Positions 29,849 to 53,542 of a stretch of DNA of 64,000 nucleotides are shown in pieces. Source of the stretch: Crassaminicella indica (GTDB taxonomy: Bacteria > Bacillota > Clostridia > Peptostreptococcales > Thermotaleaceae); NCBI RefSeq assembly GCF_019203185.1, contig NZ_CP078093.1, positions 868,001-932,000 on the forward strand, in the 5' to 3' direction. Position 1 is the stretch's first letter. Each line of letters starts with the position of its first letter. The translations under genes and the position numbers were made by a program. The notes beneath the pieces were generated by a model. The model was not told the origin of the DNA. It saw only the letters and a list, made by a program, of their open reading frames with translations, and did not search any database.

Positions 29849-29869
29849 TATTTATGATACGGTTCACCC
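29849..29869 (-). repeat. Attachment-site copy 3: RlmH C-terminal codons (left island boundary)
   Basis: Minus strand GGTGAACCGTATCATAAATA, encoding GEPYHK-stop, identical over 21 bp to the end of the functional rlmH. It is not attached to an rlmH gene here; it is preceded on the minus strand by AATAAG. A weaker ATGATACGG at 29830-29838 may be a further decayed copy. Confidence 0.7.
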
Positions 29870-29938
29870 TTATTAACTAAATACATTACTTTCTCTTTCG
29901 TTATTTATATTATATACATAATGTAGTATTGTTTAAAT

Positions 29939-29988
29939 AAAAAAAAACTAATATTGTGCTTAGTATAACAACCAAGGGCAATATTAGT
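29939..29988 (-). terminator. Terminator-like hairpin at the edge of island segment A
   Basis: Minus strand ACTAATATTG ... CAATATTAGT, a perfect 10-bp stem with a 22-nt loop, followed by T7. Confidence 0.65.
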
Positions 29989-30109
29989 TATTCCAATGCT
30001 TATCTGTCGAGTAAATACCCGAGACTTCAGCATTAACTATTCAGTTTGAGATTTACTTATTGAGTAAATACCCAAGACGTAAATATCTTATGGTGTTAGT
30101 ATAGTTTTA
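29989..30109. other. Spacer between island edge and IS3 element
   Basis: No gene. Contains an imperfect direct repeat GAGTAAATACCC(G/A)AGAC at 30009 and 30062. Confidence 0.5.
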
Positions 30110-30162
30110 TGGACACAAATTGGTTAAATATATAAAATAATAACTGAGAGGATGTGTCCATA

Positions 30163-30429
30163 ATGAACAATAAAAAATTCAATCAAGATTTTAAAAAGAC
30201 AATTGTAGATCTTTATTATTCTGATCGTTCTGTAAAAGAATTAAGCAGCGAATATGGTGTTTCAGATGTCACTATATATAAATGGATTAAAAGATTTTCT
30301 CCTATATCTACATCAGATGGAAAAACTACTACATTAAATGATGTAGCAGAATTAAAAAAACAAATTGCACGCCTTCAGGAGGAGAATACTATCTTAAAAA
30401 AGGCTATCACCATATTCGCCAAAGCATAA
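30163..30429 (+). CDS. IS3 transposase OrfA (helix-turn-helix)
   Basis: About 88 aa. NQDFKKTIVDLYYSDRSVKEL and YGVSDVTIYKWIKRFS form the HTH; a leucine-zipper-like AELKKQIARLQEENTILKKA ends it. ATG 30163 is preferred to GTG 30154, which abuts the GAGAGG site. The slippery A6G (30396-30402) near its 3' end, preceded by AGGAGGAG, directs a -1 shift into orfB, giving the OrfAB transposase. Confidence 0.9.
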   Translation: MNNKKFNQDFKKTIVDLYYSDRSVKELSSEYGVSDVTIYKWIKRFSPISTSDGKTTTLNDVAELKKQIARLQEENTILKKAITIFAKA

Positions 30430-31304
30430 ATGACGATCAATTATTTAAAGTTATTACAGAGCAGTCTGATAAACATTCTATACAAGCTATGTGCAAAATA
30501 CTAGAAGTTTCTCGTAGCTCTTATTATAATGCACTTTGTCATACACCTTCTAATCGAGAACTTGAAAATAAAGAACTAAAAGAAACAATTTATAACATCT
30601 ATACTCAATCTAAAAGAAGATATGGTGCTCCTAAAATATATCATATGCTTTTAAAAAAAGGATACACAGTTAGCATAAAAAGAGTACAGAGAATAATGCG
30701 AAAGCTTGGTATTTATGCTATTACAGTCAAAAAGTATAGACCTTATTCAACAAAACAGAAAGTCATAGAATATCCTAATCTACTTAATCGTGATTTTCAA
30801 ACCACTGCACTTAATCAAAAATGGGTAACGGATATCACTTATATACATACGATAAAAGATGGATGGTGCTATCTTGCATCTGTTATGGATCTTCATTCTC
30901 GTAAAATAATAGGGTATTCATTTGATACTGCTATGACTGTAAATGTAGCCTTACAGGCTGTAAAGAATGCTTATATTTCACAAAACCCTACAGATACACT
31001 TGTATTGCATTCCGATTTAGGCTCGCAATATACAAGCATGGAATTTGGGAGGTACCTTAAATCTAAGGGGATACAGCATTCCTTTAGTCGTAAAGGGTGT
31101 CCTTATGACAATGCTACTATTGAATCATTCCATTCTGTATTAAAAAAAGAAGAAATTCATCATGTAAAATATATAGATTTTTATACCGCTAAATTAGCTA
31201 TATTTGAATACATTGAAAGTTGGTACAATAGAAGTCGTATTCATGGATCATTAAAATATAAAACCCCTCAACAAGTAGAAGATGAGGCTAAAATTGTATG
31301 TTAA
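30402..31304 (+). CDS. IS3 transposase OrfB (DDE integrase core), made by -1 frameshifting
   Basis: In the -1 frame after A6G the sequence continues GYHHIRQSINDDQLF into the orfB frame, whose first ATG is at 30489. Integrase core with Asp in WVTDITYIHT, Asp in LHSDLGSQYTS and Glu in NATIESFHSVLKKEEI; RRYGAPKIYHML is the HTH_21 part. Domains intact, so the element could be active. Confidence 0.88.
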   Translation, partial: GYHHIRQSINDDQLFKVITEQSDKHSIQAMCKILEVSRSSYYNALCHTPSNRELENKELKETIYNIYTQSKRRYGAPKIYHMLLKKGYTVSIKRVQRIMRKLGIYAITVKKYRPYSTKQKVIEYPNLLNRDFQTTALNQKWVTDITYIHTIKDGWCYLASVMDLHSRKIIGYSFDTAMTVNVALQAVKNAYISQNPTDTLVLHSDLGSQYTSMEFGRYLKSKGIQHSFSRKGCPYDNATIESFHSVLKKEEIHHVKYIDFYTAKLAIFEYIESWYNRSRIHGSLKYKTPQQVEDEAKIVC

Positions 31305-31497
31305 AAACTAACTTTTTGTTGTCCAAAATATTGACATAGATCCACATAATGAAAAATAGTTTAAATCTTTCCCTGTTGCTGTCGGTAAACCAACTGAGTT
31401 GATACCCACGTAAAAAAGCTACCTCTTTAATTGAGATAGCTTTCATCTTATCTGCTTTAAAAATTAATCCTTAAAATAGTATTTCCTATATATATCT

Positions 31498-31671
31498 TTA
31501 TTTCCCTGTCTCTTTAACAGATTCAAATTTCATATCAAAACCATTTACATAATTCCCATTCAAAGAAATATCTATGATTTTATTTCTACCTGTTTTTTCA
31601 TCTTTTCCATATATAAATTCGTATTCTCCTAAACTATTACTTTCTACGAACTTGATGGCTTGGATACGTCT
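31498..31671 (-). pseudogene. C-terminal remnant of an unknown protein
   Basis: About 57 open codons without a start, ending ...FDMKFESVKETGK-stop and containing EYEFIYGKDEKTGRNKIIDI. Protein-like composition but no recognised family. Lies next to an IS66 fragment between the IS3 element and the 31848 gene, in a degraded stretch. Confidence 0.45.
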
Positions 31672-31686
31672 TCTTTATTTTTACGG

Positions 31687-31779
31687 CTAATCTTTTAAAT
31701 GTATTAATTTCACAATCCATCGTAATTCTTCTTTGCTTACTTTAAGAGCTTCTTCCTTTGATATAGGCCATTTAAATTT
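31687..31779 (-). pseudogene. IS66 OrfB (TnpB) C-terminal fragment
   Basis: Thirty codons KFKWPISKEEALKVSKEELRW... ending in a stop; closely similar to, but not identical with, the KFKWPMSKEEALKITVEELRW of the intact IS66 orfB at 38542. Relic of an older IS66-type insertion. Confidence 0.8.
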
Positions 31780-31785
31780 GCAACA

Positions 31786-31826
31786 ATCAAAAGTGCCTGA
31801 TGTCCAAAGCTCCAGGCACTTTTAAA
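31786..31826 (-). terminator. Terminator downstream of the 31848 gene
   Basis: AAAAGTGCCTG / CAGGCACTTTT perfect 11-bp stem with a 13-nt loop; T run on the minus strand side. Confidence 0.8.
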
Positions 31827-31847
31827 ATTATAGAATTTGATTATTTA

Positions 31848-32261
31848 CTATTTGTGATTCACTTCTGCGATATAAATCTTTGAATTCATTCTGCCTGCAA
31901 TATCTATTGCTTCTCCGGCATCATCCACTGATAAAATAAACCTTCTAGATACCACATCCTTACCAATATGCAGCTCCACATTTGGTCTGGATTTGATTGA
32001 ATCTGTATGAATTGTGTTTATTTCGGTCCAGTCCCACATATTATGAAACTGGACTCCACAGACAGTGTACAGAATATCCACTCCTTCTTGTGAAATCACA
32101 TGTTTTCTGTCAGAAAAAGTGGCAAGAATCATGATAATTCCAAATGGTAGGTAAAACCAGTTATGATTTACAGCTGCGTTATAAACAACATAAGCTCCAA
32201 AGATGATAACTGCCACCTTTACCCACAGTTTTCGTTCCGGAATGATTCCGTAATATTCCAT
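31848..32261 (-). CDS. Hypothetical membrane protein with PH-like C-terminal part
   Basis: 137 aa. Two close hydrophobic helices (about 12-45: VKVAVIIFGAYVVYNAAV and WFYLPFGIIMILATF), then a soluble half with alternating beta pattern (VISQEGVDILYTVCGVQFHNMWDWTEINTI) resembling bacterial PH-like membrane proteins. No functional name possible. It follows the NhaC antiporter gene by 35 bp and shares its GC-richer codon use, so the two are probably cotranscribed. Confidence 0.65.
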   Translation of the reverse strand: MEYYGIIPERKLWVKVAVIIFGAYVVYNAAVNHNWFYLPFGIIMILATFSDRKHVISQEGVDILYTVCGVQFHNMWDWTEINTIHTDSIKSRPNVELHIGKDVVSRRFILSVDDAGEAIDIAGRMNSKIYIAEVNHK

Positions 32262-32295
32262 AGTATCTCCTCTCTTATATTAGCTATATTTGTTT

Positions 32296-33816
32296 CTATA
32301 CGTTCTTACATAATCCAGCAGTTCTTCTTTCTGCAAGAGCCTTCATCGCCTTTTTATGTGCTTCTTCAGGTGCACCAGCAGGTCCATGACCCTTTTTTAG
32401 CTTACCAAACATATTAGTTCTTGATCCATCAGCATATAAAATATTTCCACCCCAACTTGCAGTAACAATAGCATAAATAGGGTTGATAATATTCATGAAG
32501 CAAAATGGCAAGTATGACAGTGTTGGAACTCCAAGTACTGCTGAGTGGTATGCACCGCAAGATGACCAAGGGATAAGTGGTGACCATAAAGTACCACCGT
32601 CTTCAAGTGTTCTTGACAGCATGTTCCTACCAAGACCCATTTCGTCAAAGTTATTCTTATACATTGATGAAGGAATGATTAATCCTAAGTACTGGTCGCA
32701 CATAGTTGTGATACAGAACATTGAAGTCGTAATGGTAACAACAACTAACTGGAATGGAGTCTTAACCTTCTTGATAAGTCCACCAAGAAGTGATTCTACT
32801 GAACCAATCTTCTGAAGTATACCACCAAAAGCAACCGCAACTATTACAAGATTGTTAGTCCAAAGCATACTATCCATACCACCTCTATTTACAAGCTTTG
32901 TAAACAGTGCGTTTTCTGATTCAGCTGCATATCCATAGTGTAACATTTCGATGCAGTCAGAGATTCCGGCACCCTGGAAAATTAAAGCAAATACACATCC
33001 TATCAAGGAAAGAAGTACAACTGAAGGAATAGCTGGCATCTTTATTACTGCTACTACTATAATCAGTAAAATAGGAATAAGAAGAATTGGACTCATATAT
33101 GTATAGTGGTGAATGATTGAAGCTGATAACTCATTTGCAAGAGTAGGGTCATAGTTCTGAACCTCTGAAAGTGAGAAAAATGCATATATACATGTTGCAA
33201 TAACTACACTTGGGAAAGTTGTAGTTACCATAGCTGCTACATGATCAAAAAGTCCAGTTTGTGCAGAACCAGCAGCCAGATTTGTTGAGTCTGAAAGTGG
33301 TGAGAATTTATCGCCACAACATGCGCCTGAAAGAATAGCACCTGCAATAAGTGCTGGATTTAGTCCCATTGTTGTACCTATAGCCATAAATGCAATACCA
33401 AGAGTTGCTGTGACTGTCCATGCTGATCCAAGTGCAACACCTACAACTGCACAAAGAACTGTTACAAATGGAAGGAATACATCCGGTGTAAATAGCTTCA
33501 ACCCATAATAGACTACCGCCGGGATAGTTCCACATGCAGTAAATGAACCAATCAGGCATCCCACAAGAAGAATGATAATTATTGCTTCAAGGGACTGATT
33601 AACAGCTTCCAGACCTGCAGCAAGCATTTCTTTGTAGTTATAGCCGCACAGTTTTCCAATAATCATGGCAACTGCACATGCAAGAGTTACAGGAATATGA
33701 GGATCCATTCCCCAGCCAAGTGCATAATTTGTGATCATTACTATCAGAAGAAAAAGAATTGGAATAAGAGCTTCCACTTTGTTAGGCAATCTGACTATCT
33801 TGTTTTTTTCACTCAT
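32296..33816 (-). CDS. NhaC-family Na+/H+ antiporter
   Basis: About 506 aa from ATG 33816, which has GGAGGTG correctly spaced; an upstream in-frame start at 33849 has none. Twelve or so hydrophobic segments; the NhaC signatures ALGSAWTVTATLGIAFMAIG, GAILSGACCGDKFSPLSDSTNLAAG and TMCDQYLGLIIPSSMYK are clear. Exchanges sodium for protons, or in some relatives an organic anion or amino acid. Codons use more G and C in third positions than the flanking core genes, suggesting transfer. Encoded downstream of a two-component system on the same strand. Confidence 0.9.
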   Translation of the reverse strand: MSEKNKIVRLPNKVEALIPILFLLIVMITNYALGWGMDPHIPVTLACAVAMIIGKLCGYNYKEMLAAGLEAVNQSLEAIIIILLVGCLIGSFTACGTIPAVVYYGLKLFTPDVFLPFVTVLCAVVGVALGSAWTVTATLGIAFMAIGTTMGLNPALIAGAILSGACCGDKFSPLSDSTNLAAGSAQTGLFDHVAAMVTTTFPSVVIATCIYAFFSLSEVQNYDPTLANELSASIIHHYTYMSPILLIPILLIIVVAVIKMPAIPSVVLLSLIGCVFALIFQGAGISDCIEMLHYGYAAESENALFTKLVNRGGMDSMLWTNNLVIVAVAFGGILQKIGSVESLLGGLIKKVKTPFQLVVVTITTSMFCITTMCDQYLGLIIPSSMYKNNFDEMGLGRNMLSRTLEDGGTLWSPLIPWSSCGAYHSAVLGVPTLSYLPFCFMNIINPIYAIVTASWGGNILYADGSRTNMFGKLKKGHGPAGAPEEAHKKAMKALAERRTAGLCKNV

Positions 33817-33925
33817 AAAAACACCTCCGAAAATATAATGATTTATCAAATTACAATTCCATCATAATATTCTCTGCGTCAAGGAAGTGTCAATAAATAT
33901 GAATATTAGTCAATTTTTTTAATAT

Positions 33926-34741
33926 TTATTTTTCATATTTCTCCCTTTCGATGAAAGCATTAATCTCTTCAGCCCAAGAATACTGAGCCATATATTCGCC
34001 ATGATAAAGCTTTCTGCCCTCTACACTGTTTTCTACCCATTTAAAGTAGTCGCACTGGATACATTCTAAGTTTGACAGTCCAATCTGGCCTCTTGCACTA
34101 TATATTATTTTTCCACATCCAAGCTGGTTCATCACATCCTGCAAATCTTTTTTCAGCATCCTGTAGTACGAATCATGACCATCTTCCTCCCATAGAGTTG
34201 CAATTACTTCCTTTGAAGTACATCTTGTGCCCTTTCTGTGAACAAGATATGCCAGAAGCTCCTTTGTCTTTTCAAATTTAAATTTTACAGGTTTTCCATC
34301 TATACGTATCTCAAAATTTCCAAAGCAGGTTATCTGTATCCTCCGTTCCTCTTCCCCTACTGGATTCTCCTGAGATGAATATCTAAGATTTTCAAGTGCA
34401 TGACGTATCTGCTCCACATTTGCTGGCTTCATGATATAATCACTGGCATCCAATTTAAATGCCTCTCCCATATGATCCGAATAACCAGTCACAAATATGA
34501 AATTGGTCTTAGGGTACAATTTTTTAAGCTTGTTGGCAAACTCTATCCCATTTAATCCCGGCATTTGTATATCAATGAAGCACACATGAAACTGCTGCTG
34601 CTTGGCAAGCTCCAGTGACTGAACAGGATTATTTGCCATTACAATTTCTGCTTTTTCATCAACTTCACATATTAATGCTACAAGATACTCTGCTGCAATT
34701 ATCTCATCGTCCAATACTAAGTATTTCACGTCGTTCACCAC
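33926..34741 (-). CDS. Response regulator with CheY receiver and SARP-like winged helix
   Basis: 271 aa. Receiver domain about 1-120 (YLVLDDEIIAAEYL acidic pair, FIDIQMPGLNG phospho-Asp, FVTGYSDH, DYIMKPAN). The C-terminal half ITCFGNFEIRIDGKPVKFKFEKTKELLAYL and KEVIATLWEEDG is a SARP/BTAD-type winged helix. The start overlaps the kinase gene; GTG at 34741 or 34729 are both possible. With the kinase it forms a two-component system likely to control the NhaC antiporter gene just downstream. Confidence 0.85.
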   Translation of the reverse strand: MVNDVKYLVLDDEIIAAEYLVALICEVDEKAEIVMANNPVQSLELAKQQQFHVCFIDIQMPGLNGIEFANKLKKLYPKTNFIFVTGYSDHMGEAFKLDASDYIMKPANVEQIRHALENLRYSSQENPVGEEERRIQITCFGNFEIRIDGKPVKFKFEKTKELLAYLVHRKGTRCTSKEVIATLWEEDGHDSYYRMLKKDLQDVMNQLGCGKIIYSARGQIGLSNLECIQCDYFKWVENSVEGRKLYHGEYMAQYSWAEEINAFIEREKYEK

Positions 34742-36008
34742 TCTCCAGTCTTACATTTTTTCTTTCTCCCGGAATAATAATTTTTACAGTTGTTCCAATT
34801 CCTATAAGACTTGTAATTTCCATTTTTGCTTTAACCATACTTTTTAGCCGTTCATTTACATTATGTATGCCAACATGAGGCTTTCCATCATTTAATGCCT
34901 TGTCTATTTCAAAGCCTATTCCATTATCTTCAATTATTATGATGTGATCCCTTCCCTGCTTTTCTGTAGAAATCTTTATTGTTCCTCCCTCAAGCTTTTT
35001 GCATATTCCGTGCTTGACTGCATTTTCCACAATTGGCTGCAACGTCAGTCTTGGCATATTAAAATCATCTGATTTTATATCATATTCTACCTTTACCCGA
35101 TCCCCAAATCTCAGTTTTTCTATATCAAGATAAATATTTGTATACTCCAGCTCCTGAGAAAAAGGATGTGTGTCATTTTCGCCCATGCTATACATATTTT
35201 CCCTAAGATATCTGGAAAATTTTATAGTAGTTTCCTCTGCAAGCTTCGGATTTGCTCGGCAAAGTGCAGTGATAGTATTTAATGTATTGTATAAGAAGTG
35301 AGGCTGTATCTGTGAAAGCATCAATGATACTCTTTGTTCCCTCAGCTTTATTTCCTTTTCCTCATTTACCTGCTGTGATATATATACATGTATTACAAGG
35401 TAATAAAACAAAAATGCTACAGCATAAGTTTCGTTCAATATTCCCGCTCGTACCCCTATTGATTCCATAATATTTGCAGTCATCAGCCAAGCTATACAGA
35501 AGAAGACTCCAAGAGGATTTACATCTGTTTTTTTATAAAATTCCATATTCAATATAAGAAGGAATATAACCCAATATACCCAGTCCGTAACAATAAAGGT
35601 ATATCCCACAAGTCCAAGTTCAAGGCTTCCATCGGATCCAAAATAAAATACATTATTTTTAAAAAATGCACCACAGTAAAAAAGGAAATTCACTATGGCG
35701 GGAACATAGATTAATTTATTTTTTGGTTTCACCATATTTATGATTGTAGCCATAACCAAAGGTTTTAGAGAGTAATAGGTTATACCTGTTATGATGAGCG
35801 GCAATCCCACCATAGCTTGCTCCTTAAGATAATTCATATAGAACTCCGCTATAGACAGAATCAAAAGCAGTGTCATATTTATAACCATTCGTTTTTTTAT
35901 AAATATATCTACTGCGGATTTCATGAAAACAACAAAATATATCCCCACTACCATTGCAATAAGTATATAGTTTTCAACAAGATAATTTTGCAAATATGTC
36001 TCTTTCAC
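34704..36008 (-). CDS. LytS/YpdA-type sensor histidine kinase
   Basis: About 434 aa. The N-terminal 200 residues hold roughly seven membrane helices (7TM-type sensor). A His_kinase domain with QIQPHFLYNTLNTITALCRA (phospho-accepting His) and a HATPase with LTLQPIVENAVKHGI and IIIEDNGIGFEID follow. GTG 36008 is preferred because GAGG lies eight bases upstream; GTG 36017 overlaps that site. Overlaps the regulator gene by about 38 bp. Part of the GC-richer block. Confidence 0.88.
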   Translation of the reverse strand: MKETYLQNYLVENYILIAMVVGIYFVVFMKSAVDIFIKKRMVINMTLLLILSIAEFYMNYLKEQAMVGLPLIITGITYYSLKPLVMATIINMVKPKNKLIYVPAIVNFLFYCGAFFKNNVFYFGSDGSLELGLVGYTFIVTDWVYWVIFLLILNMEFYKKTDVNPLGVFFCIAWLMTANIMESIGVRAGILNETYAVAFLFYYLVIHVYISQQVNEEKEIKLREQRVSLMLSQIQPHFLYNTLNTITALCRANPKLAEETTIKFSRYLRENMYSMGENDTHPFSQELEYTNIYLDIEKLRFGDRVKVEYDIKSDDFNMPRLTLQPIVENAVKHGICKKLEGGTIKISTEKQGRDHIIIIEDNGIGFEIDKALNDGKPHVGIHNVNERLKSMVKAKMEITSLIGIGTTVKIIIPGERKNVRLESGERREILSIGR

Positions 36009-36179
36009 GTACTTCACCTCATACTATTTAAAAACACTTTAAACTGCCTAGCCTCATTTCAAATCAAGTGAGCTTTAGCGACTTTTCGCAAAATGGATAT
36101 GTCATTTTTTCACTTCCATATAAGCATACAATAACTAACACTAAGAATTTTATTTTTACTTGAGGAAATTGCATAATTA

Positions 36180-37600
36180 GCATTTTCAAAATAGAAATTG
36201 AAACAACATGATAGCAAAGGCTCGTTTTCGAGCTAATTTAAAATCCTATTCAAATTGTAATTTGCTAAGCAATATTTTCCTCCATAAATTCTATTATTAT
36301 GTTACCTTATTAGGCAACTTTCTTAATCTGATTTTTTATATTTAATGCAATTGTTCCTGAGATTAATACTATGCAATTTAATAATGCATGCATTTTTGCT
36401 TTTTTAATACCCTTAGATCTTATGTTATCAGTATTTAGATACTCCTTAAGCCTACTATTGCATCTTTCAACAGATGTTCTGCTATTATACTGTTTCTGCC
36501 ATTGTTTACTGGATCTTAATGGATATCCATTAAGTCTAGGATTTTCTTTGTAATTGAGTTTTAGTGTGTATCCATAATTTGAATTAGAACACCAAGTCAT
36601 TCCATGAGGGCAATTGCATCTGCCTACAGCATGAGGGCATCTAAATTTTATATAATCACTATCTTTTCTCCAATAAACTAGTTTATATCCTGCAGAGTAG
36701 ATAGGATCAAAATCTTCATCTAATCCTTCTGGTGGAGCGTAGCTTCCTCTAGGATTGTATGCAATGATTGGAATCCCTTGAAATTTATTAACTATATCGT
36801 TATAAATATAGTCATAATCATATCCAGAATCCATTGAATAATAAGTTGTATTAAAGTGGTTTTTGTAGTGATTCTTAAATTGTTTAATCAATGGTATTGC
36901 AACTGTTCCATCATGTACACTAGCTGGAGTAATTTTTATATCTAACGGTAACTCGCTTTTACAGTCACATAGAATATGCAATTTCCAGCCAAACCATCGT
37001 ATGTTATTACCGTTTGTATCTCGCTTCATACCCCAGTTAGGATGTGTTCCATCATCGATAATTTTTGATTTAGGAACCGCAGCTTCATAGCAATTTAGTT
37101 TAGTTGAATCAATAGATACATTATTTCCATCAATGATATCTTGTTCTTTAGCTTTAATAACTAAATCATGAAATAAGGTCTCTAATTCGTTTGATTCAGC
37201 TAATTTTTCTAAAAATCTACTGAAAGTTGATTCTGATGGTGTTTTTCCTAAAACTTCAAAGCCACAAGAATATCTTAAAATTGGATTTTCTTTAAGTTTT
37301 AGAACCAAATCTTTTATAGTTGGGATTCTTTCAACTTGCATTGCAAGCAAAGAGTATATTAAACATACAGGATCATAGCCTTTCGGACCTTTTTCAGAAC
37401 TTGATTTTCTAATGCTGCTAGCTAAAGTAGAAATATCTAATTGTGAGAAAATCATTTCTAATTTTGTTTCTTGTTGAAAACTAATAATTTCTTCAAAGGA
37501 AAATAAGGTTGTTTGTCGAATATACATTAAGTGGTTTCGCTCCCTTCGGGTATTAGGTTTGGTCACTTAGTATATTCGACACTGTGGGGTGAAACCCATT
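36180..37600 (-). mobile_element. Insertion sequence carrying the DDE transposase (ends not resolved)
   Basis: Single-gene element in the GC-richer region. A GCTCG-TTTT-CGAGC hairpin lies at its downstream side near 36213-36226. I could not find convincing terminal inverted repeats by eye. Confidence 0.5.
36310..37527 (-). CDS. DDE transposase (IS1182/IS5-like group)
   Basis: About 405 aa from ATG 37527 (GGGAG upstream). DUF772-type N-terminus (FSQLDISTLASSIRK, KGYDPVCLIYSLLAM), then the DDE core: SIDSTKLNCYE, KLHILCDCKSELPLDIKITPASVHDG, YYSMDSGYDYDYI, and R-T-S-V-E-R-C-N-S-R-L with the Glu. A Cys-rich CPHAVGRCNCPHG insert is present. Intact. The family label is by resemblance only. Confidence 0.85.
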   Translation of the reverse strand: MYIRQTTLFSFEEIISFQQETKLEMIFSQLDISTLASSIRKSSSEKGPKGYDPVCLIYSLLAMQVERIPTIKDLVLKLKENPILRYSCGFEVLGKTPSESTFSRFLEKLAESNELETLFHDLVIKAKEQDIIDGNNVSIDSTKLNCYEAAVPKSKIIDDGTHPNWGMKRDTNGNNIRWFGWKLHILCDCKSELPLDIKITPASVHDGTVAIPLIKQFKNHYKNHFNTTYYSMDSGYDYDYIYNDIVNKFQGIPIIAYNPRGSYAPPEGLDEDFDPIYSAGYKLVYWRKDSDYIKFRCPHAVGRCNCPHGMTWCSNSNYGYTLKLNYKENPRLNGYPLRSSKQWQKQYNSRTSVERCNSRLKEYLNTDNIRSKGIKKAKMHALLNCIVLISGTIALNIKNQIKKVA

Positions 37601-37619
37601 TTTGTATTCAAAAATATTT

Positions 37620-37829
37620 AGTAAAATCAACACTTAGAAATTATGAAATTTGCTCATTTATAATATTACTATATCATTTTTACTTAATTAATCAATATGC
37701 ACATGTGGAGTCTGTATCTGATGTTACTTTCAAACTTCTTAAATAGCATTTTCATACTTCCGATTATGTTGAGCGTAATCTTTTTCTCCATCTATCTGCC
37801 ACATTTACAACAACTAATTTCGAGTAGTT
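37620..37829. other. Non-coding, degraded sequence
   Basis: Between the transposase and the recombinase remnant. Short ORFs on the plus strand (for example 37697-37939) lack ribosome sites and run antisense to recognisable remnants. Confidence 0.4.
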
Positions 37830-37940
37830 ATTGGACTTTAACTTGTCGTGCAGTCTTATATTTTTCGTTCTGCAATATCTTCTTCACAGTTTCTGATCTC
37901 CACTTTAGACTAGAGCTGCTATCAAAAGATAAAAAATAAG
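37830..37940 (-). pseudogene. Serine recombinase fragment
   Basis: The frame reads SSSSLKWRSETVKKILQNEKYK and then is soon broken by a stop. The W-x-S-E-T-V-x-x-I-L-x-N-E-K-Y-K pattern is typical of the Recombinase domain of large serine recombinases, including Ccr-type and ICE integrases. Only this small piece is recognisable. It sits about 140 bp from an rlmH-end attachment copy. Confidence 0.5.
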
Positions 37941-38003
37941 ACTTCCAGCAGTCGGTGATTGTTAGCGAAAGTCTGGAAAGCTCTGATTTAAGACTTTCTA
38001 GAC

Positions 38004-38071
38004 CTATTTATCTTTGCGTGACATCAAGACAACTGTCTCCACGTGTGTCATATGTGGAAACATATTATAAA
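38004..38071 (-). pseudogene. C-terminal tail of a RumA/RlmCD-type 23S rRNA methyltransferase
   Basis: The frame ends MFPHMTHVETVVLMSRKDK-stop, matching the invariant tail (DMFP-T-HVETVVLLSR) of 23S rRNA uracil-5 methyltransferases. The rest of the gene is absent. The 3' end of rum genes is a known integration site for some streptococcal ICEs, so this may be a carried-over attachment end. Confidence 0.75.
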
Positions 38072-38082
38072 AAGACCGCCGT

Positions 38083-38103
38083 TACTTGTGGTACGGTTCA
38101 CCC
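38083..38103 (-). repeat. Attachment-site copy 2: RlmH C-terminal codons with different codon usage
   Basis: Minus strand GGTGAACCGTACCACAAGTAA encodes GEPYHK-stop like the native rlmH end but with TAC CAC AAG instead of TAT CAT AAA. It continues on the high-coordinate side into CCTTATTAAATAAATACATT, the same terminal sequence that follows copy 3 (one mismatch). Suggests a junction formed in another host. Confidence 0.65.
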
Positions 38104-45447: not shown

Positions 45448-45884
45448 ACTCCACCGCTCTTCATCTAATACAAAAAATTACAGGAAGAGATATATCAAAA
45501 TGTCCTCACTGTAGCTCTATCAACCTTAATAGGTTTATTTGTTGCAAATCTCCTCCTATCACTGTAAAAACTTCATAACATTAAAAATATGCCCTATTAT
45601 GATGAGAGGGAAATGCTGTCCATATTTCTTTGTTTTATCTTATTTTTGTATATTCGCTATTATATTTTTTAACTAAACATTTAATTTATTTGAAAAATTA
45701 TCCAATAAAAAACCATTCTTTCCCTATAGTAACTACCTATATTCCCGCAGTTTCGCGCTATCTTAATTATCCAAAGTTAGGCGAGGTAAATTTAATTTCA
45801 AACTCAAGTCCTTATTTTAGGGGTTGAGCTTTTTTACACCTACCTTCGTATAATTTGCTATGGATAATGGGAAGCTACTTTATT
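45448..45884. other. Spacer with a possible zinc-ribbon scrap
   Basis: On the plus strand about 45480-45570, a short start-less frame includes SKCPHCSSINLNRFICC, like the N-terminal zinc ribbon of some transposases, then stops. Otherwise nothing. Must contain the promoter of the 45447 gene. Confidence 0.35.
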
Positions 45885-46178
45885 TTATATTCTTTTTAAC
45901 CTACCCTTTTCCAAATATGCCAACATAAGTACCGAAGTATCAACATTCTCTCTAGCCGCCAATACATTTAGCTCAACAATTATCAGTGGGACATCATTTT
46001 CAAGTTTATGATGCCTTAAGAATTTAGACATTAGATCATATAAATATTTTCTCTTGGGTTTTGTCATTTCTTTATACATTTTTATTGTATATTCCGGTTT
46101 CATAATACTACCAGTAAACATTTTGGTAACAGTTAATATATCATACATTTTCTGTACATAACCCATAAATTTACTCAT
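45885..46178 (-). CDS. Small unknown protein coupled to the SIR2/AbiH-like gene
   Basis: About 97 aa starting at ATG 46178, where ATGAGTAA overlaps the stop codon of the upstream gene and AAGGAG is close by, implying translational coupling. Basic and helical (MTKPKRKYLYDLMSKFLRHH). No family recognised. Tight coupling suggests it works with the product of 46171-47301. Confidence 0.65.
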   Translation of the reverse strand: MSKFMGYVQKMYDILTVTKMFTGSIMKPEYTIKMYKEMTKPKRKYLYDLMSKFLRHHKLENDVPLIIVELNVLAARENVDTSVLMLAYLEKGRLKRI

Positions 46179-47301
46179 ACTCCTTCCACAATTTTTGAAC
46201 TTCTTCAAATTCTAGTATATCTTTATGATGTGTAATAAGTTTTTTAACATCTTCTATTTGACTTTTTTCATAATAGTAGAATATAATTTTTTTGATTTTT
46301 TGATTATTATCAATCATCTCAAATATATGAATATCATTATTTGGAGATAAACCAACTATAGTTAATGTACCTTTGATAGCTTCAAACTCTTTTATCGGAT
46401 AATTCTCATCAAATTTCATATCTGGATTATTAATTTTTATTTTAATTGTCTCATACAGATTCTTTACTAAAATATTTTCATCATTTTTCCACATATCAAC
46501 ATCTTGTTGAATCTCTGGCTTTTCTATATATCCTTTTGCAAATTTATCCATTCCTTCATTTGCTAAAATCGCCTGCTTAATAATAAATAGTTTTGAGTTT
46601 CCACTATAAGAAGTCAACGCATTTGAATATAAGTAAAAATGCTCATCATCTATTACACAGTTATTTATTGGCCTATCAGACAAACTATTCCTTAAAGAAT
46701 TCGGTTTATATATATCTTTTTTTATATAAAATGAGCCATGTAAATAGTTTATTTTCTGACCACTAAATATTTCAACATTTTTATCGTAGTTTGTTGTAAA
46801 TATATCTTGAAACTGTCCAAAAAACTCCTTGAGACCATTTGGATAATTGTAATATATCTTTTCAACTTTTCCATGATTATATATAGAATAGAGAAAAAAG
46901 CATTTTAATGCCTCTCTAATATAAAATTTATCTGGATTATATATCTTATTTTTATAGCAAAAAAGATCATATATTAAATAATAATCTTCAAACCCAACAT
47001 CCACTAAATTAATACTGTCCCATTTTTCATAGCGTTCAATAAAATCATTCAAACTGTTCTTTTCATCCGTTGTAAAAGCATATTGATCATACTTATGATC
47101 TAGTATATCACCTATTTGAGCATATAAATATCCCAAAAGTTGCAGTATAAGAACAGGTTCATCTACTATGATGTGTCTTGGATAATCTTGCTGTTTAGTT
47201 TCATTTATTGCACGTAAAATTATTTCTCTATTTGAATTCTCTTTATCGCCAAATTGAATGTTTATTCCATTCCCGAATAACAGTGTATTTTTTGTATCCA
47301 T
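46171..47301 (-). CDS. SIR2-like / AbiH-like protein
   Basis: About 376 aa from ATG 47301 (GGGGGG site before it). NTLLFGNGINIQFGD matches the N-terminal nucleotide-binding strand-loop of AbiH/SIR2-like proteins. IFTTNYDKNVEIFSGQ followed by INYLHGSF is the hallmark TTNYD...HG of SIR2-like and DUF4917 families. Near the end, LTIVGLSPNNDIHIFEMI matches the G-L-S-x-x-D segment. Such proteins act in phage defence, often by NAD+ depletion. A catalytic Asn/His pair cannot be confirmed without alignment. Confidence 0.7.
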   Translation of the reverse strand: MDTKNTLLFGNGINIQFGDKENSNREIILRAINETKQQDYPRHIIVDEPVLILQLLGYLYAQIGDILDHKYDQYAFTTDEKNSLNDFIERYEKWDSINLVDVGFEDYYLIYDLFCYKNKIYNPDKFYIREALKCFFLYSIYNHGKVEKIYYNYPNGLKEFFGQFQDIFTTNYDKNVEIFSGQKINYLHGSFYIKKDIYKPNSLRNSLSDRPINNCVIDDEHFYLYSNALTSYSGNSKLFIIKQAILANEGMDKFAKGYIEKPEIQQDVDMWKNDENILVKNLYETIKIKINNPDMKFDENYPIKEFEAIKGTLTIVGLSPNNDIHIFEMIDNNQKIKKIIFYYYEKSQIEDVKKLITHHKDILEFEEVQKLWKEYE

Positions 47302-47473
47302 GTAATCCCCCCGATTATATTTGCAGCAAAACACATTAAATTTTCAGCTTTCCATTATTAGCCTAATAGATATATAGATAATTGTATCCAAGCATATCTT
47401 ACAAATATTGTAATTACACTTTTTTAAAAAATAATTATCTAATTTCATATCCACAGCTATATTTATTTATGCT

Positions 47474-48280
47474 TCATTGAGGAATTTTCGTCTTTACAAA
47501 TTCTATAAATTTTTCTACGTTGTTACTAAGTTCTATTGCAGTCGGTATATTGGTAATGGCCACTTTTAATCCCATTATACAAGTCTTAATAAGTCCTTTC
47601 TTGGGTATATCTTTTTTCAATTCTTCTTGTATGGTTTCTATATTTTCCTCAATCATTTCTTTTTCATCTTTTGGAACATTGTCATCCAATAATTCTTTAA
47701 TACTATCTACTAATTTTATTAATCCATCTGAATTAGTTCCATTATTTTGTATTGCATTAATTGTTGACTGATCTTTTGCAATATTAACTTGTTGACCATT
47801 AACTGTAATCATATATTTCACATCCTCATCATAACCCATTTCAATTCCTATTCTAGTTAAATAAGCTTCAATATGATTTATTAATACCAAAGTTACTCTA
47901 TTGTTAAAATCTTTAACCATATCTTGATATGCTCTTGCGTCAGAATAACTCCTTGCTATTCCCACAATGTCTCCTTCAGTTTCTGAAATATATTTCAATA
48001 TAGTATATACAGTATAAATTTCTTCTTCAATTGTATTCCCTAAATCAAATATTGCTCGTCCATAACTAGAGCTAACTTCCTGTACTTCTTGAGTAACATC
48101 AAAGTCTTTTCTTGTACATGCTCTAACATAATCATTAATTATTGATGTATTTTCAATATATCCTATAAACATTTTGAGTACAGAATAAATTTCTATATAA
48201 GAAACTCTAAGCAACCTATTTGCCATACAATTAAAGTTATAACTAATTATTTTTAATTCCTTTTTATTCAAATTCATCAT
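47474..48280 (-). CDS. Unknown 268-aa protein coupled to a zinc-ribbon protein
   Basis: The start ATG lies 17 bp inside the zinc-ribbon gene, so the two are translated together. Helical. The middle has VNGQQVNIAKDQSTINAIQN followed by IKLVDSIKELLDDNVPKDEKEMIEENIETIQ, and the end FIEFVKTKIPQ. This layout (variable helical N-terminus, Asn/Gln-rich beta segment, helical C-terminal module) is one I associate with effector or sensor tails in defence loci, but I cannot name the family. Confidence 0.6.
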   Translation of the reverse strand: MMNLNKKELKIISYNFNCMANRLLRVSYIEIYSVLKMFIGYIENTSIINDYVRACTRKDFDVTQEVQEVSSSYGRAIFDLGNTIEEEIYTVYTILKYISETEGDIVGIARSYSDARAYQDMVKDFNNRVTLVLINHIEAYLTRIGIEMGYDEDVKYMITVNGQQVNIAKDQSTINAIQNNGTNSDGLIKLVDSIKELLDDNVPKDEKEMIEENIETIQEELKKDIPKKGLIKTCIMGLKVAITNIPTAIELSNNVEKFIEFVKTKIPQ

Positions 48281-48722
48281 ACATCACCCCACAATACGGG
48301 CAGTAACTGCCACACATTTTTATTAAAGGTTTTATTTTGGCTTCTTTTTTGCAACATTTATATTTCTGCATCTCCAAAGCTTCAATACCTGATACAATAG
48401 GTGTTTCTATTTCTTTTGGTGGTCTCTTTCCAGCATTAAATGAAACTCCACACCCTTTAAACTGTTTTTCCCACTTTTTCATTTCGTCAAATATCCTATC
48501 CATTGCAATATTAGTCCCCATTTTCATTGCAAGTTCTATTACATCTTCTGTAAAGTAATTTTCACTTCTTAATCCACAGCATGGACACCAAATTTCTATA
48601 ACGTTATCTTCTTCCATATCCCTTGGCTTCAATTTAAAAAACTCTCCACATAGTGGACACTGCAATAACACAAAACCATCATTATCCGCTGGAATAGATA
48701 TTTCCATTTGTATATCAGTCAT
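48264..48722 (-). CDS. Zinc-ribbon protein of unknown function
   Basis: 152 aa with several Cys pairs: LLQCPLCGEFFKLK, IEIWCPCCGLRSENYF, YKCCKK and MCGSYCPYCGVMYDEFE. These could form two zinc ribbons. GGGGGCGAG site before the ATG. The open frame 48715-49005 ends inside its first codons. Confidence 0.65.
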   Translation of the reverse strand: MTDIQMEISIPADNDGFVLLQCPLCGEFFKLKPRDMEEDNVIEIWCPCCGLRSENYFTEDVIELAMKMGTNIAMDRIFDEMKKWEKQFKGCGVSFNAGKRPPKEIETPIVSGIEALEMQKYKCCKKEAKIKPLIKMCGSYCPYCGVMYDEFE

Positions 48723-49005
48723 ATGCTCGCCCCCTTCTATATTCTAATTTTCTATTACAGGTCTTTTTAATAACTGTACCTTTTCTATCTATTCTCCACT
48801 TAACTTCCCTTAAACAAATTAAAACTTTTAACTGTTCACAATTTGAGCTTAATACCCCTGTCAAAAGATTCAATTCTATTATTTTAATAAATTCATGTCG
48901 CTTGGCTATTGTCCAAGTATCCCAGAATTCAGGACTTATTACAATATTCTCAGCATATAGTGGTAATAAATTATTAAGATACTTAAGTAAAAAATTTTTT
49001 GGGGA
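48715..49005 (-). pseudogene. Start-less 96-codon frame upstream of the zinc-ribbon gene
   Basis: Open from just after a TAG at 49006-49008 to the TGA at 48717-48715, with protein-like sequence (ISPEFWDTWTIAKRHEFIKI, QLKVLICLREVKWRIDRKG) but no ATG. The first TTG is a third of the way in. Its stop overlaps the ATG of the zinc-ribbon gene as in coupled genes. Probably the 3' end of a truncated upstream gene of the same operon. Confidence 0.5.
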
Positions 49006-49064
49006 CTAATTTAATTACTGTATAAATTTCCCATATAACTCGTCAGATATGCTAACACAGGGGA

Positions 49065-49910
49065 TCATTCCTCATACTTATTTTTCAATCTATAATATGC
49101 AATTATTACACTAGTATAATATTGCATCATCCAATCATACCAAATTTCTTTACTATAATCTTCCTTTTGATCTGCTCGATTATGTCTAATACTAAATCCA
49201 TTTACAATACTGAAAATCAACTTATCATGCTCGTTTTTATTTATTTTGTATTCATCGTTTAAGATATTTTTAACACCTTCACGTTCACCCTCTAAAATAT
49301 CAGCTAAGATATTAATAGCTTTTTTCTTCATTTCCATATTTGAATCAAATCTATAATACATTTCTGTTGCTGTAGATAATTTAGTATAAACTGCATTCGT
49401 CATTTCATCACCCTTATAAGATAATTGCTGTTTTAATGCTTCATTGGGCAATTTCATAATAAATCCATTTTGTGGCTCAAGATAATATCCATCGCAATAC
49501 ATTTTTAAGATATTATTAATGTACTCTGCAAACTCTTTTTGTGGTTCTTCTTTCTTTAATTCGGAATTAATATAATCGTACACAGCAATATGGTCATACA
49601 ATATTTCAATTACTGTGAATAATATCTCTTCAGTATAGTCTTCGGAATATTGCAATATTGGCCATATTTCAGAAGACTGTAATTGATTTGCAAAAAAGAT
49701 TTCAGGAGACGGTGCAAGAGTTGGAGCTATAATTTGTTCTTCATCATTTGTATATGGTATCTTTCGCCATATACCATTTTGAGCACAATCAAAATACTCT
49801 TTATTACTAAAATATCTATATATCTGTTCAAAAAAAGTAATTAATTCATCAAGGCATATATTTAAATTCTTCTTTATTAAACCATTTCTCTCTACATAAT
49901 ATTTCTTCAT
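49065..49910 (-). CDS. Unknown 281-aa protein
   Basis: No family named. Helix-rich, acidic. The C-terminus has SIVNGFSIRHNRADQKEDY followed by WYDWMMQYYTSVIIAYYRL, a pattern (R-H-N/H-x-x-Q and W-x-x-W) I have seen in small abortive-infection or HEPN-like proteins; not certain. Monocistronic in the defence-like block. Confidence 0.55.
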   Translation of the reverse strand: MKKYYVERNGLIKKNLNICLDELITFFEQIYRYFSNKEYFDCAQNGIWRKIPYTNDEEQIIAPTLAPSPEIFFANQLQSSEIWPILQYSEDYTEEILFTVIEILYDHIAVYDYINSELKKEEPQKEFAEYINNILKMYCDGYYLEPQNGFIMKLPNEALKQQLSYKGDEMTNAVYTKLSTATEMYYRFDSNMEMKKKAINILADILEGEREGVKNILNDEYKINKNEHDKLIFSIVNGFSIRHNRADQKEDYSKEIWYDWMMQYYTSVIIAYYRLKNKYEE

Positions 49911-50252
49911 AAAAATCTCCTTTACTTATTTTTTTATAAAACTTAGTTGATTCTGCTATCTAACGGTTGTGAGCTTTGCAACGTAAATATTGAATTACTC
50001 TATATTGACAAATACCTATTATAAACACAATCTATAATCAATCTAATATTTCAAATGACTCTAAAATTTTAACTAGGTATATTTTACCATATATGTAGGC
50101 TTATTGTTTATTTTCTTGTATAATTTTGTAAATGTAAAAAATAAAAAACAGCATCTTTTTCAGATACTGTCACAATACTCGTTTATATAATATATTTAAT
50201 ATCTCCTAATTTGCTAGATCCACTTACTATGGATAATGTGTAATTGATTAAG
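49911..50252. other. Spacer without genes
   Basis: AT-rich. A partial repeat CTATGGATAATGTG near 50231 resembles sequences at 45859 and 51336 in other spacers of this block. Confidence 0.35.
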
Positions 50253-51239
50253 CTATATGTTTATTGGTTTTCTGTTTAGTTGGTATTGATGAGAGTCAAC
50301 CTCCATCTTATATATGCTTTTTTCTAGGTGTGCTAATTGTTTGTTTCTTTTAACGAGCATTTGTACCTTTTTATAATTACATTTACATCCACAGTAAATG
50401 CCACTTATTGCCTTTGGATTTATTCTAAACAAATGTATACTGGAAGAATTAAAAGAAGATGTATGCATATATATTTCTGCTTTTATACTTTCATCCCCCA
50501 TGTTTTCATGCATCTCATACTCATTTGGATAAGTTATTTGAATTTTGCCATCAGCAAGATCCTCTGTTCTAATTTCAGGACATTTTGACAGAACATCTAT
50601 AAGATGATTATCTTTTGTACAAATAATTCTATCTGCATCGCGTAACTGAACAATAGAACGTAATTCCTTTTCATATATCCAATCGTTAGACTTTGTAAAA
50701 AATAAAGAATAAAGGAACTTAATCCAATGATACTCTCCATCTGAATTAGGTTGTAATTGTTCAGGTCTATCAAAACTTGGCATTTCTCTTCGATACATAA
50801 CTTTTTCTGGGAATTCATATATGTGTCCTAAATAGGGCTTACCAAATCTGGATTTTCGATTCCCTAAAAACTTTATAGAATCTTGAAATAGCGGTTTTTC
50901 AGAATCAAATTCTAATACTATTCCTTTATACTGGTCCGCGTAGTGTGCCCACATTAACGGATTCGTATAATCTTCTGTGAAGGACAAAACACCTACATCA
51001 TCAAAATCACTTTGTAATGTACCCATTATCCCATCCAATTCATAGTCTTCCAATTTATCCACAATATTTCCCTGTTTAGTGAAATAAGCATTCAAACTAT
51101 TATTTGCATCTTTAAATTGTTTTTCATTAAAAATTCCTTCAAACGGATCGTTAAGAGCCTTAAATGGTGTAGCTCGAAGCATGAAATCCCTGAAAAAATC
51201 TTCTCGCAAACGTGTATATTTGTAAAAAAATTTGACCAT
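50253..51239 (-). CDS. DUF2971-family protein
   Basis: 328 aa. FYKYTRLREDFFRDFMLRATPFKALNDPFEG (outline), MWAHYADQYKGIVLEFDSEKP and the WIYEKELRSIVQL segment are the DUF2971 signature: the N-D-P-F-E, the W-A-H-Y-A-x-x-x-x-G and the E-K-E-x-R motifs. Function unknown in general; members are frequent in mobile elements and defence islands. Confidence 0.85.
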   Translation of the reverse strand: MVKFFYKYTRLREDFFRDFMLRATPFKALNDPFEGIFNEKQFKDANNSLNAYFTKQGNIVDKLEDYELDGIMGTLQSDFDDVGVLSFTEDYTNPLMWAHYADQYKGIVLEFDSEKPLFQDSIKFLGNRKSRFGKPYLGHIYEFPEKVMYRREMPSFDRPEQLQPNSDGEYHWIKFLYSLFFTKSNDWIYEKELRSIVQLRDADRIICTKDNHLIDVLSKCPEIRTEDLADGKIQITYPNEYEMHENMGDESIKAEIYMHTSSFNSSSIHLFRINPKAISGIYCGCKCNYKKVQMLVKRNKQLAHLEKSIYKMEVDSHQYQLNRKPINI

Positions 51240-51559
51240 ATGTACACTTTCTCCTTATCTGATTTTATAAATATACATTCTTCACATTATTGCTAAAACA
51301 TTCAGTATATGAACTCCAGATTATTAGCCTAATGTGTGATTACTATGGATAATCTAAAGTTATATCATTGAGTTACGAATGCACTGCGCATTCTAAGTTG
51401 TATAAATAATGTTCACCCTATTATTCCACTCTAATATATGGAATTTTGAATACCTTCAGTCTCTCAAAAAATGATTGAGATCATCATACAGATATTGCTG
51501 ATATCCCGCATGGAAATTATATCTACAATCACCCAAATAATTGCGTGATTGTGCAGCAG
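51240..51559. other. Spacer without genes
   Basis: No coding signal. Contains ATTATTAGCCTAAT at 51320-51333, also found at 47354-47367, followed by CTATGGATAAT; possibly a shared promoter or operator of the island genes. Confidence 0.35.
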
Positions 51560-52554
51560 CTAATTGCAAGAGATAATTATATTCATAGTTTTCTCTTTCT
51601 TTCTGTATTTTTTTCGTGTTTCCCAAAAAGCTCCGATTACGCCTATTCCAATCCCTAATACTCCTAGATGTTTAAGGGTAGTTTCAGGCATATCAGCAAA
51701 TAATTGCATTACTGGAAGTAGAGCAGGCACCATTAAACTTCTAACTCCCATCCACCCCAAAACATTAGTATCACGCATACTTTTTTTATACTCTCTTTCA
51801 GATTCTTCAATTTCTTGTAGGTAATCTTCAATAATATCTTCAATGATTTTCTCATCTTCACATGCTGATATCCTAACACTCAATTCTTTAATACTGTTGA
51901 AAAAGCGTTGTCTTTCATTTTTTCGTTTTTCTCTTAATTTAATTAACTCTCTTGGCTGAATATCCATTATATTAATTGGTATAAAATCACTAATAGTTAT
52001 GCAAGCTAATTGAGTTTGTGATTCTTCTTCATAATCCGAAATATTTCCATCATGTTGAAAAAAATTCGAACCACACCAACACACCAAGCTTCTGTATAAT
52101 CTGTGGATAAAGATATATCATTGCTTTTTGCAATGTAGTTCGCTAAGAACAACATGTATATTGAAGCCATATCGTGTGGTACATTAAGCCAATTATTGTC
52201 TTTTGTATCTTGTGCGAGTATCATTTCACGTAATCTCACATCAGCTTTGTCTTTATGCAGTTTTACATAATTTTTACGCGTATATTTTGAGTTATCTAGT
52301 GCTGCTGCCCACCAAGTTTCCTTTTTACAACCTTCTATAAACGCTTCGCCTGCTTTTAATGAATATTTACTTGGATCAATATTCGATATAAAGTCGCTAT
52401 TTGATATGAGCTCCTTAATATTTCTGCTATCTTTTGGTTGATAATCGGTTGGAACAATTCTATATATTCTATCCCATAATAGAGCAGCAGACCATAACCA
52501 TTCTGAATTACTAAATTCAATAGTTGGATAATATAAAGTATAATTCTTTGGCAT
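51560..52554 (-). pseudogene. DUF6236-like gene split by a frameshift (or using -1 frameshifting)
   Basis: Two overlapping frames form one protein of about 330 aa. The first (52554-52006) starts LYYPTIEFSNSEWLWSAALLWDRIYRIVP and runs to TDYTEAWCVG. The second continues FQHDGNISDYEEESQ, FIPINIMDIQPRELIKLREKR and ends with two hydrophobic stretches. This order and the WLWSAALLWDRIYRIVP start match DUF6236-type proteins. The frames join at T7 (about 52064-52070), read U UUU UUC in the first frame. Restoring the reading needs one extra T or a -1 slip. Confidence 0.7.
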
Positions 52555-52599
52555 TCTAACCCCTCCTATTTTACTGCATTAATATGATTAGTTGAATTG

Positions 52600-53062
52600 T
52601 ACATTGCTTGCCACCTAATCTAAATGCTCTAGTAGATTCTCATTATAAACATATTGAGAATCTAATCTATAATAAGATAGTATTTCATTATAATGATAAA
52701 TATTTTTCAAGTACATACATATTATAGCATTCTTATGATTATATTTACATTAATTTCAATCTTTAGATGTCAATTTACATTTCCTAACTTAAATTTCAAG
52801 AAAAGAAAAATGCAGGATCTTTAATCCTGCATTAAATACAAATTTAATATCATTTTGATCTTGCTTGCTTCTACTTACACTCTATAAACCATAGATTGAT
52901 TAAATGTTATAGAATTTCATAAGCTAATAGGTATTATTCCTATTAAATTAAGCTTCTTTATAAAAGGTATATATAAACTATCCTTACTTTCTTTAACCTC
53001 TATCTCTTACTTGATTACTCTAATCAATGCAATAGATTTTTATAACTAAATTTGCTATTAGG
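52600..53062. other. Region between the island cargo and rlmH
   Basis: No gene seen. Holds the terminator at 52800-52833 and the right end of the island next to rlmH. Confidence 0.5.
52800..52833 (-). terminator. Terminator downstream of rlmH
   Basis: AATGCAGGAT / ATCCTGCATT perfect 10-bp stem with a 5-nt loop; on the minus strand followed by TTTCTTTTC. It is 230 bp past the rlmH stop, so island sequence now separates rlmH from it. Confidence 0.8.
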
Positions 53063-53542
53063 CTATTTATGATACGGTTCACCCCTCATAATCCTAAACC
53101 CTCTATAAACTTGCTCAAGTAATATTACTCTCATTAACTGATGAGGAAAAGTCATTGCAGAAAAAGAAAGCTTATAGTCTGCTCTTTTTAATATTTTCTT
53201 AGATAAGCCAAGAGAACCTCCAATAACAAAGGCTATGCTGCTATTTCCTCCAACCCCTAGCTTTTCTAATTTATCTGAGAGTTCTTCTGATGAGAGCATT
53301 TTTCCTTTTATATCTAATGCTATTACATACATTCCATCTTTTATGTGCTTTAATATTTTCTCTCCTTCTGCATCTTTGATCTGTTCCATTTCCTTATCAC
53401 TTAAATTTTCTGGTGCTTTTTCATCTATCACTTCAATCATATGTAGTTTACAATATCTAGAAAGCCTTTTTTTATATTCATTAATTGCACTCACTAAATA
53501 TTTTTCTTTTATCTTTCCTACTCCAATAATAGTTATATTCAT
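53063..53542 (-). CDS. rlmH: 23S rRNA pseudouridine-1915 N3-methyltransferase
   Basis: 159 aa SPOUT methyltransferase, normal length. [21 protein letters not shown] at the N-terminus; the SAM-binding knot [32 protein letters not shown]; and the invariant C-terminus [10 protein letters not shown]. Last gene of the conserved wal region. Its last codons are the presumed integration core of the island and still encode the normal tail, so the gene stays functional. Confidence 0.97.
53064..53084 (-). repeat. Attachment-site copy 1: 3' end of the functional rlmH
   Basis: Minus strand GGTGAACCGTATCATAAATA, last codons of rlmH. Shares 21 bp with 29849-29869 and the encoded GEPYHK-stop with 38083-38103. 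In staphylococci the equivalent sequence at the end of orfX/rlmH is the SCC attachment site. Confidence 0.7.

Follow-up and report, generated by a model that had tools for sequence, protein, structure and literature searches.

Putative cassette attachment sites at the end of rlmH in Crassaminicella indica and their recurrence in small-cassette arrays of Clostridia

We analyzed a stretch of 64,000 nucleotides from the genome of Crassaminicella indica (contig NZ_CP078093.1, positions 868,001 to 932,000; the window in what follows), in which the final codons of rlmH occur three times and bound two stretches of DNA, here called element 1 and element 2. The staphylococcal cassette chromosome (SCC) is known mainly as large islands carrying methicillin resistance in staphylococci. 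We consider it likely that the three repeats are attachment (att) sites of an SCC-type system, and that they belong to a clostridial branch of that system which has turned integron-like, small cassettes being captured at the tail of rlmH. A broader proposition, towards which we lean with much less assurance, is that Clostridia of this order (Peptostreptococcales) run a second, independent integron-like capture platform, with the rlmH tail as its anchor, transfer units of one or two genes, a Ccr-type enzyme often encoded elsewhere or in other strains, and spread between genera and families. Genomes and loci used in the comparisons are cited by G and L numbers.

Results

Three copies of the RlmH tail in the window

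The rlmH gene (53063..53542, minus strand) encodes 159 aa and ends in GEPYHK-stop, as read from the list of open reading frames (ORFs). The RlmH-tail sequence GGTGAACCGTAYCAYAA was found without mismatch at 53067-53083, 38086-38102 and 29852-29868, always on the minus strand; the chance expectation, from dinucleotide-shuffled windows with 3 mismatches allowed, is a mean of 0.16 matches. The ORF check showed no rlmH ORF attached to the copies at 38086 and 29852. A degenerate codon pattern, GGNGARCCNTAYCAYAA, matches 3 places only in the 2.76 Mb genome, which are the copies in the window, and its reversed control matches none. The sequence-only reading had reported the RlmH tail three times in one orientation, twice without rlmH, and the same terminal sequence beside both free copies. 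Both observations hold: the two free copies have in common an adjoining CCCTTATTAA-N-TAAATACATT (about 20 bp, one mismatch) and diverge beyond it.

Numbered from rlmH, attachment site 1 consists of the last codons of the gene (core 53067-53083, minus strand; exact site match). Site 2 (38070..38123, minus strand) comprises a left arm AATGTATTTATTTAATAAG, the core GGTGAACC and a canonical right arm GTACCACAAGTAACGGCGGTCTTTTT, scores 36.3 bits against the site model described below (E 1e-8), and is an SCC-type att in its core and right (outer) arm. Site 3 (29847..29879, minus strand; site model E 5e-5) has the left arm AAGTAATGTATTTAGTTAATAAG, the same core and an rlmH-like right side, GTATCATAAATAAGC; its left arm is similar to that of a Maledivibacter site at a locus other than rlmH (L075). 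No tRNA was found within the window. The same genome holds a second site pair away from rlmH (G000:C1:1093110-1096492, or L190:10110-13492), which encloses two genes of 463 and 473 aa.

Architecture and distribution of the site

Comparison of the flanks of 30 sites gave a common consensus, a dyad of about 55 bp that reads AAAACCGCAGTTA...RTAC, core GGTGAACC, GTACCATAARTRACKGCGGTTTT. RNAalifold returned no consensus base pair and no covariation in the alignment of these 30 sites, and a hairpin model of the attC kind was rejected. The lack of a consensus fold or covariation suggests a site recognized as double-stranded DNA by a protein, unlike the attC hairpin of integrons.

The RlmH-tail pattern is present in 13 of the 16 genomes of the window's family, many of which have several copies away from rlmH, while the reversed pattern gave zero matches in all of them. 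A sequence model of the site matches 62 of the 198 genomes sampled from the order, with 24 copies in G004, 23 in Geosporobacter ferrireducens (G010) and 19 each in G001 and G005; at a cut-off tenfold stricter than that of the order scan it matches 19 of 399 genomes taken phylum-wide. A pattern scan across GTDB found at least 115 stretches, the genera represented including Alkaliphilus, Anaerovirgula, Geosporobacter, Clostridium and Mediterraneibacter as well as Staphylococcus, Macrococcus, Enterococcus, Sporosarcina and Lysinibacillus; among the matches listed, 64 of 122 P' (right) arms lie at rlmH-like open frames. The viral contigs and plasmids searched with the site gave no match. A search for the junction in other genomes had been proposed as a check of the sequence-only reading, and it finds the site class recurring in Clostridia and Bacilli, with or without a Ccr nearby. 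The staphylococcal att sequence used for comparison was taken from an annotated S. aureus plasmid record (pRM27, L212), and it matches the clostridial site model with an E of 1.2e-5. At two loci (L159:7543-7644 and L179:7237-7339) a pair of right arms of the staphylococcal type (27 bp) was seen, the two arms lying about 100 bp apart.

Small-cassette arrays and their cargo

In many of the 62 site-carrying genomes of the order the site organizes co-oriented arrays, many of which start at rlmH (as in G092, G118, G072, G064, G017 and G102) and others elsewhere. Neighboring sites had the same orientation in 58 of the 60 pairs at the fetched loci. Mapping gave 58 cassettes in 15 genomes, with a median length of 2.16 kb; one or two ORFs are present in 36 of them, and some arrays include decayed sites of few bits. 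No large serine recombinase or remnant of one was detected among 145 cargo proteins with a recombinase panel and three transposases, tyrosine recombinases being outside that panel, and the only transposase matches were fragments of one IS3. The fetched cassettes of the window's family likewise yielded no large serine recombinase. The composite-SCC view of the sequence-only reading is supported in part and is incomplete, its sites being part of order-wide arrays of small cassettes that are more integron-like than a plain composite SCC.

The cargo consists of regulators (TetR, AraC, MerR, PadR), two-component systems, ABC transporters, DJ-1 and flavodoxin proteins and some defence genes, one of them with a match to Avs4. 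The strongest PADLOC match of the cargo census is that Avs4 match, and its source is probably the 1556-aa protein of a cassette at L057:379-5049. Three Cass2 (integron-associated effector-binding) proteins and four DUF4489 proteins also occur among the 145. The direction of transcription agrees with that of the site for 112 cargo genes and opposes it for 33 (about 23%), which makes promoters within the cassettes themselves probable.

Sequence evidence for cassette movement

Nearly identical cassettes are found in more than one genus, and their breakpoints lie at the sites. G001 and G006, which belong to two genera and whose rlmH genes are 68.5% identical, share a LysR/DJ-1 cassette at 92% identity, with sites at both ends in both genomes. 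A stretch of 1.9 kb is 97% identical between Alkaliphilus pronyensis (G082) and A. serpentinus (G072); the identity begins in the core, which is preceded by a P (left) arm in the first species and by the rlmH gene in the second. Across families, 576 bp of a cassette with a 116-aa gene are 92% identical (G010 and G118). The ends of inter-genome homology fall within 100 bp of a site in 18 of 61 cases, against 2.3 expected and a maximum of 9 in 2000 randomizations. As far as these sequences can be read, cassettes have been exchanged between genera with breakpoints in the core, and the cassettes would be mobile.

Element 2 of the window (sites 2 to 3) gives an example within the genus. Apart from its insertion sequences (IS) it shares 97% identity with a stretch of G006, a genome of the same genus, that stands at a locus other than rlmH (L046). 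The homology between the two starts in the core GGTGAACC and runs through the same P' outer arm and terminal sequence; in the other direction from the core the two genomes have unrelated DNA. The IS copies of element 2 are later insertions and are missing from the copy in G006. That element 2 is a cassette is well supported. In four genomes (G006, G007, G009 and G012) the DNA 3' of rlmH is unrelated to that of the window beyond site 3.

The claim that everything between the RlmH-tail copies is accessory is supported: element 2 occurs in another genome with its end at a site, and element 1 is marked as accessory by the rarity of one of its genes. This gene, the M14B member of a PDC-M14A/PDC-M14B pair, has no counterpart in the 15 other genomes of the family, and only one other of the 198 genomes of the order has a strong match to its product (43% identity).

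Ccr-type recombinases beside the sites

Recombinases adjoining arrays elsewhere in the order score 278-447 bits against the NCBIfam CcrB model, and three other enzymes tested score at most 146. A site lies within about 6.5 kb in 10 of the 13 loci that reach at least 270 bits. In a tree of 22 enzymes the staphylococcal CcrB groups with eight clostridial rows, seven of them array-adjacent (support 93/90), and the enzymes of G028, G082 and G088 form a second group. The Ccr of G087 and the CcrB encoded in an SCC region of S. aureus are 50.4% identical over 375 residues. A Cch homologue is found beside ccr in G087 and in G077 (Anaerovirgula multivorans).

The Ccr genes of the second group overlap their sites. 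That of G088 runs tail-to-tail into the att site of rlmH, and those of G028 and G082 contain an att site in their 3' end, so that recombination would alter the C-terminus of the enzyme itself. In the complete genome of G028 the only PF07508 enzyme is the product of the Ccr gene that holds the att site. Genes of the Ccr type whose 3' end contains an att site or overlaps rlmH tail-to-tail were noted at L211:10811-12932, L055:9307-10980 and L057:5088-6755. Five PF07508 recombinases with frames of 700 aa and near-identical scores were also seen in the single contig G130:C1 (1102688, 1472096, 1676838, 3412488 and 4399736); they are possibly a serine-recombinase transposon.

Discussion

Proposed mechanism

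In the mechanism that we propose, the target (attB) would be the 3' end of rlmH, and the mobile cassette would have a single dyad-symmetric site, with a right arm that codes for the end of RlmH as well (Y-H-K-stop). Since this P' arm re-encodes the end of the protein, RlmH would remain intact after insertion. A Ccr-type large serine recombinase is predicted to exchange strands within the core GGTGAACC, joining rlmH to the P' arm of the cassette. A second target would remain at the far end, and repeated insertion would then build a co-oriented array. The enzyme is probably supplied in trans by rarer ccr-bearing elements, which sometimes also carry cch. From the sequences we likewise infer that Ccr is the catalyst, that there is a circular intermediate, and a route for cassettes from cell to cell. 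As the cassettes are mostly small (one or two genes, about 2 kb) and recombinase-less, the arrays would behave like integron cassette arrays.

Several observations weigh against this interpretation. The window genome has no Ccr-grade recombinase, its four large serine recombinases scoring 51-194 bits against the CcrB model, and the island contains no ccr gene. A Ccr-grade gene was not found in several of the genomes richest in arrays (G010, G005, G106 and G092), and three of the 13 Ccr homologues (G143, G006 and G008) have no site nearby. Site 1, the rlmH end in the window, lacks the canonical P' outer arm. In G006, element 2 is flanked by a near-perfect direct repeat of 77 bp (L046:4713-4790 and 9519-9596), beside both cores; such a repeat resembles a long target duplication, and simple conservative recombination does not predict it. 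Neither a circular form nor an empty site was observed.

These points determine how far the layout proposed by the sequence-only reading can be retained. The arrangement of SCC elements at the end of rlmH is kept in that SCC-type att sites stand at the RlmH tail, and is lost in that the island is without ccr. Two related elements in tandem are well supported as regards element 2; the entry of element 1 at rlmH by the att route is unproven, because its end on the rlmH side has no canonical outer arm. Since they contain neither ccr nor a Cch-type replicative helicase, the elements are better described as recombinase-less members of a cassette-chromosome system than as SCC.

Alternative explanations

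The arrays could be ordinary composite SCC, that is, successive full-size elements that lost ccr by deletion (pseudo-SCC), the small cassettes being debris and not transfer units. Such composite and pseudo-SCC elements have been described from staphylococci and Bacilli (PMC10061031), which speaks for this account, as do the decayed sites of some arrays. We nevertheless regard this account as unlikely, given that units of one or two genes recur between genera with their ends at sites, that neighboring sites are almost always co-oriented, and that the 145 cargo proteins include no large serine recombinase or remnant of one, but only fragments of one IS3.

A recombinase other than Ccr, either another large serine enzyme such as the common ones of 470-550 aa or a tyrosine recombinase, might instead move the cassettes. 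Array-rich genomes such as G010, which has no Ccr-grade gene, encode up to 15 other large serine recombinases, as this idea would have it, and the four of the window genome were considered as candidates too. Such serine enzymes rarely adjoin arrays (two cases, L062 and L065), in comparison with 10 of 13 for the CcrB-like enzymes, tyrosine recombinases not having been scanned, and the architecture of the site is that of the SCC att site used by Ccr. We judge the involvement of a non-Ccr enzyme to be improbable.

It is more improbable still that the sites are repeated bidirectional terminators between which cassettes have been shuffled by homologous recombination. The arms AAAACCGC...GCGGTTTT are able to form a terminator-like stem and many single sites fold strongly, but the alignment of 30 sites has no common fold, which suggests protein sites on double-stranded DNA. 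The sequence identical among sites is short, conservation of the core and the rlmH codons is confined to one side, and one cassette adjoins rlmH with its left arm replaced by rlmH coding sequence. Spread of the repeats by IS movement was rejected and has a negligible probability in our estimation: although the island of the window holds three IS and an IS66 end lies 22 bp from the core of site 2, none of the sites falls exactly at the end of an IS, the IS copies of element 2 came later, and in many genomes the sites of the arrays have no IS beside them.

Comparison with known systems

The cassette system proposed here is like SCC and SCCmec in its target at the 3' end of rlmH, in the AAAACC...GCGGTTTT dyad of an att site whose right arm carries the rlmH tail, in its CcrB-like recombinase, in the Cch helicase of some elements and in its tandem composites. 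It differs in that the hosts are clostridial, that the core GGTGAACC is followed by a right arm one base longer, that most cassettes are units of one or two genes and about 2 kb without ccr, that many arrays stand away from rlmH, and that the window genome has no ccr.

The Enterococcus cassette chromosome (ECC) also targets rlmH with CcrAB-like enzymes, has att sites of about 50 bp with inverted repeats, and shows several attR in some strains (PMC6222049). ECC elements were identified by ccrAB and average 42 ORFs, and arrays of small cassettes are not described for them (PMC6222049). The target, the CcrAB-like enzymes and the inverted-repeat att are alike in the two systems, and the small-cassette arrays set ours apart from the 42-ORF average of ECC. 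A further group comprises the SCC-like islands of Bacillota with Pol-SSB primases, which are inserted at rlmH, encode large serine recombinases and form composites in which the end of rlmH is repeated; they are large elements with replication genes, and the two that are named from clostridia (C. difficile and C. perfringens) insert in ssrA (PMC10061031). They resemble our system in insertion at rlmH and differ in the size of the elements and in the use of ssrA by the named clostridial examples.

Integron cassettes and CALINs (attC clusters without an integrase) are similar to the arrays in being small, co-oriented and recombinase-less, in having one site per cassette and an anchor site, and in carrying Cass2-type cargo. 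They differ in that our data point to recombination of the serine type (Ccr), not of the tyrosine type (IntI), the recombinases adjoining the arrays being CcrB-like in a survey of serine recombinases; in addition, the site has no covarying hairpin and about 23% of the cargo genes are directed against it. The pdif modules of Acinetobacter are recombinase-less units that are bounded by short dif-like sites of 28 bp and moved by the XerCD of the host. Our cassettes share with them the short bounding sites and the absence of a recombinase, but the site and the recombinase are different.

In the open-access literature searched on clostridial cassette chromosomes and arrays, we found no description of small-cassette arrays of SCC-type sites. 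The existence of a widespread clostridial version, with cassettes of one or two genes and a nearly identical att, suggests that the cassette-chromosome system predates the staphylococci and extends beyond them. The arrays would be a serine-recombinase counterpart of the integron and bear on the origin of SCC and on the minimal size of a mobile unit; both that minimal unit and the supply of recombinase in trans become testable in environmental species.

Gene content of the two elements

Element 2 (29869..38085) measures 8.2 kb including its two later IS. Its cargo, assigned by Pfam and NCBIfam, occupies 31848..36017 on the minus strand and comprises a PH-domain (bPH_7) protein, an NhaC-type Na+/H+ antiporter, a response regulator and a histidine kinase. 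One of the IS, of the DDE_Tnp_1 type (Pfam; 36162..37658, minus strand), corresponds to a gap in the alignment with the G006 copy; the other, an IS3-type insertion near the far end (Pfam; 30089..31382, plus strand), matches L050 at 93-95%.

Element 1 (38103..53062, about 15 kb), bounded by sites 1 and 2, is probably a larger, defence-bearing element, and the rarity of its M14B gene among relatives marks it as accessory. An IS66-type element with an inverted partial second copy, forming a perfect inverted repeat of 873 bp, occupies 38124..41552 near its far end. The stretch from 41932 to 52554 holds a candidate defence cluster together with several ORFs without a family match. The cluster includes the PDC-M14A/PDC-M14B two-gene candidate anti-phage pair (47474..48722, minus strand; PADLOC E 7e-57 and 1e-94), a DUF2971 protein that is a PDC-S31 candidate defence gene (50253..51239, minus strand; Pfam; PADLOC E 2e-24) and a DUF4365 protein with TPR (43393..45447, minus strand; Pfam E 1e-18; PADLOC). 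An ORF of 387 aa in the same stretch matches PDC-S21 weakly. Outside the elements, between site 3 and serS, a short response-regulator ORF of 98 aa (29340-29636) matches the end of the domain model only and is likely debris.

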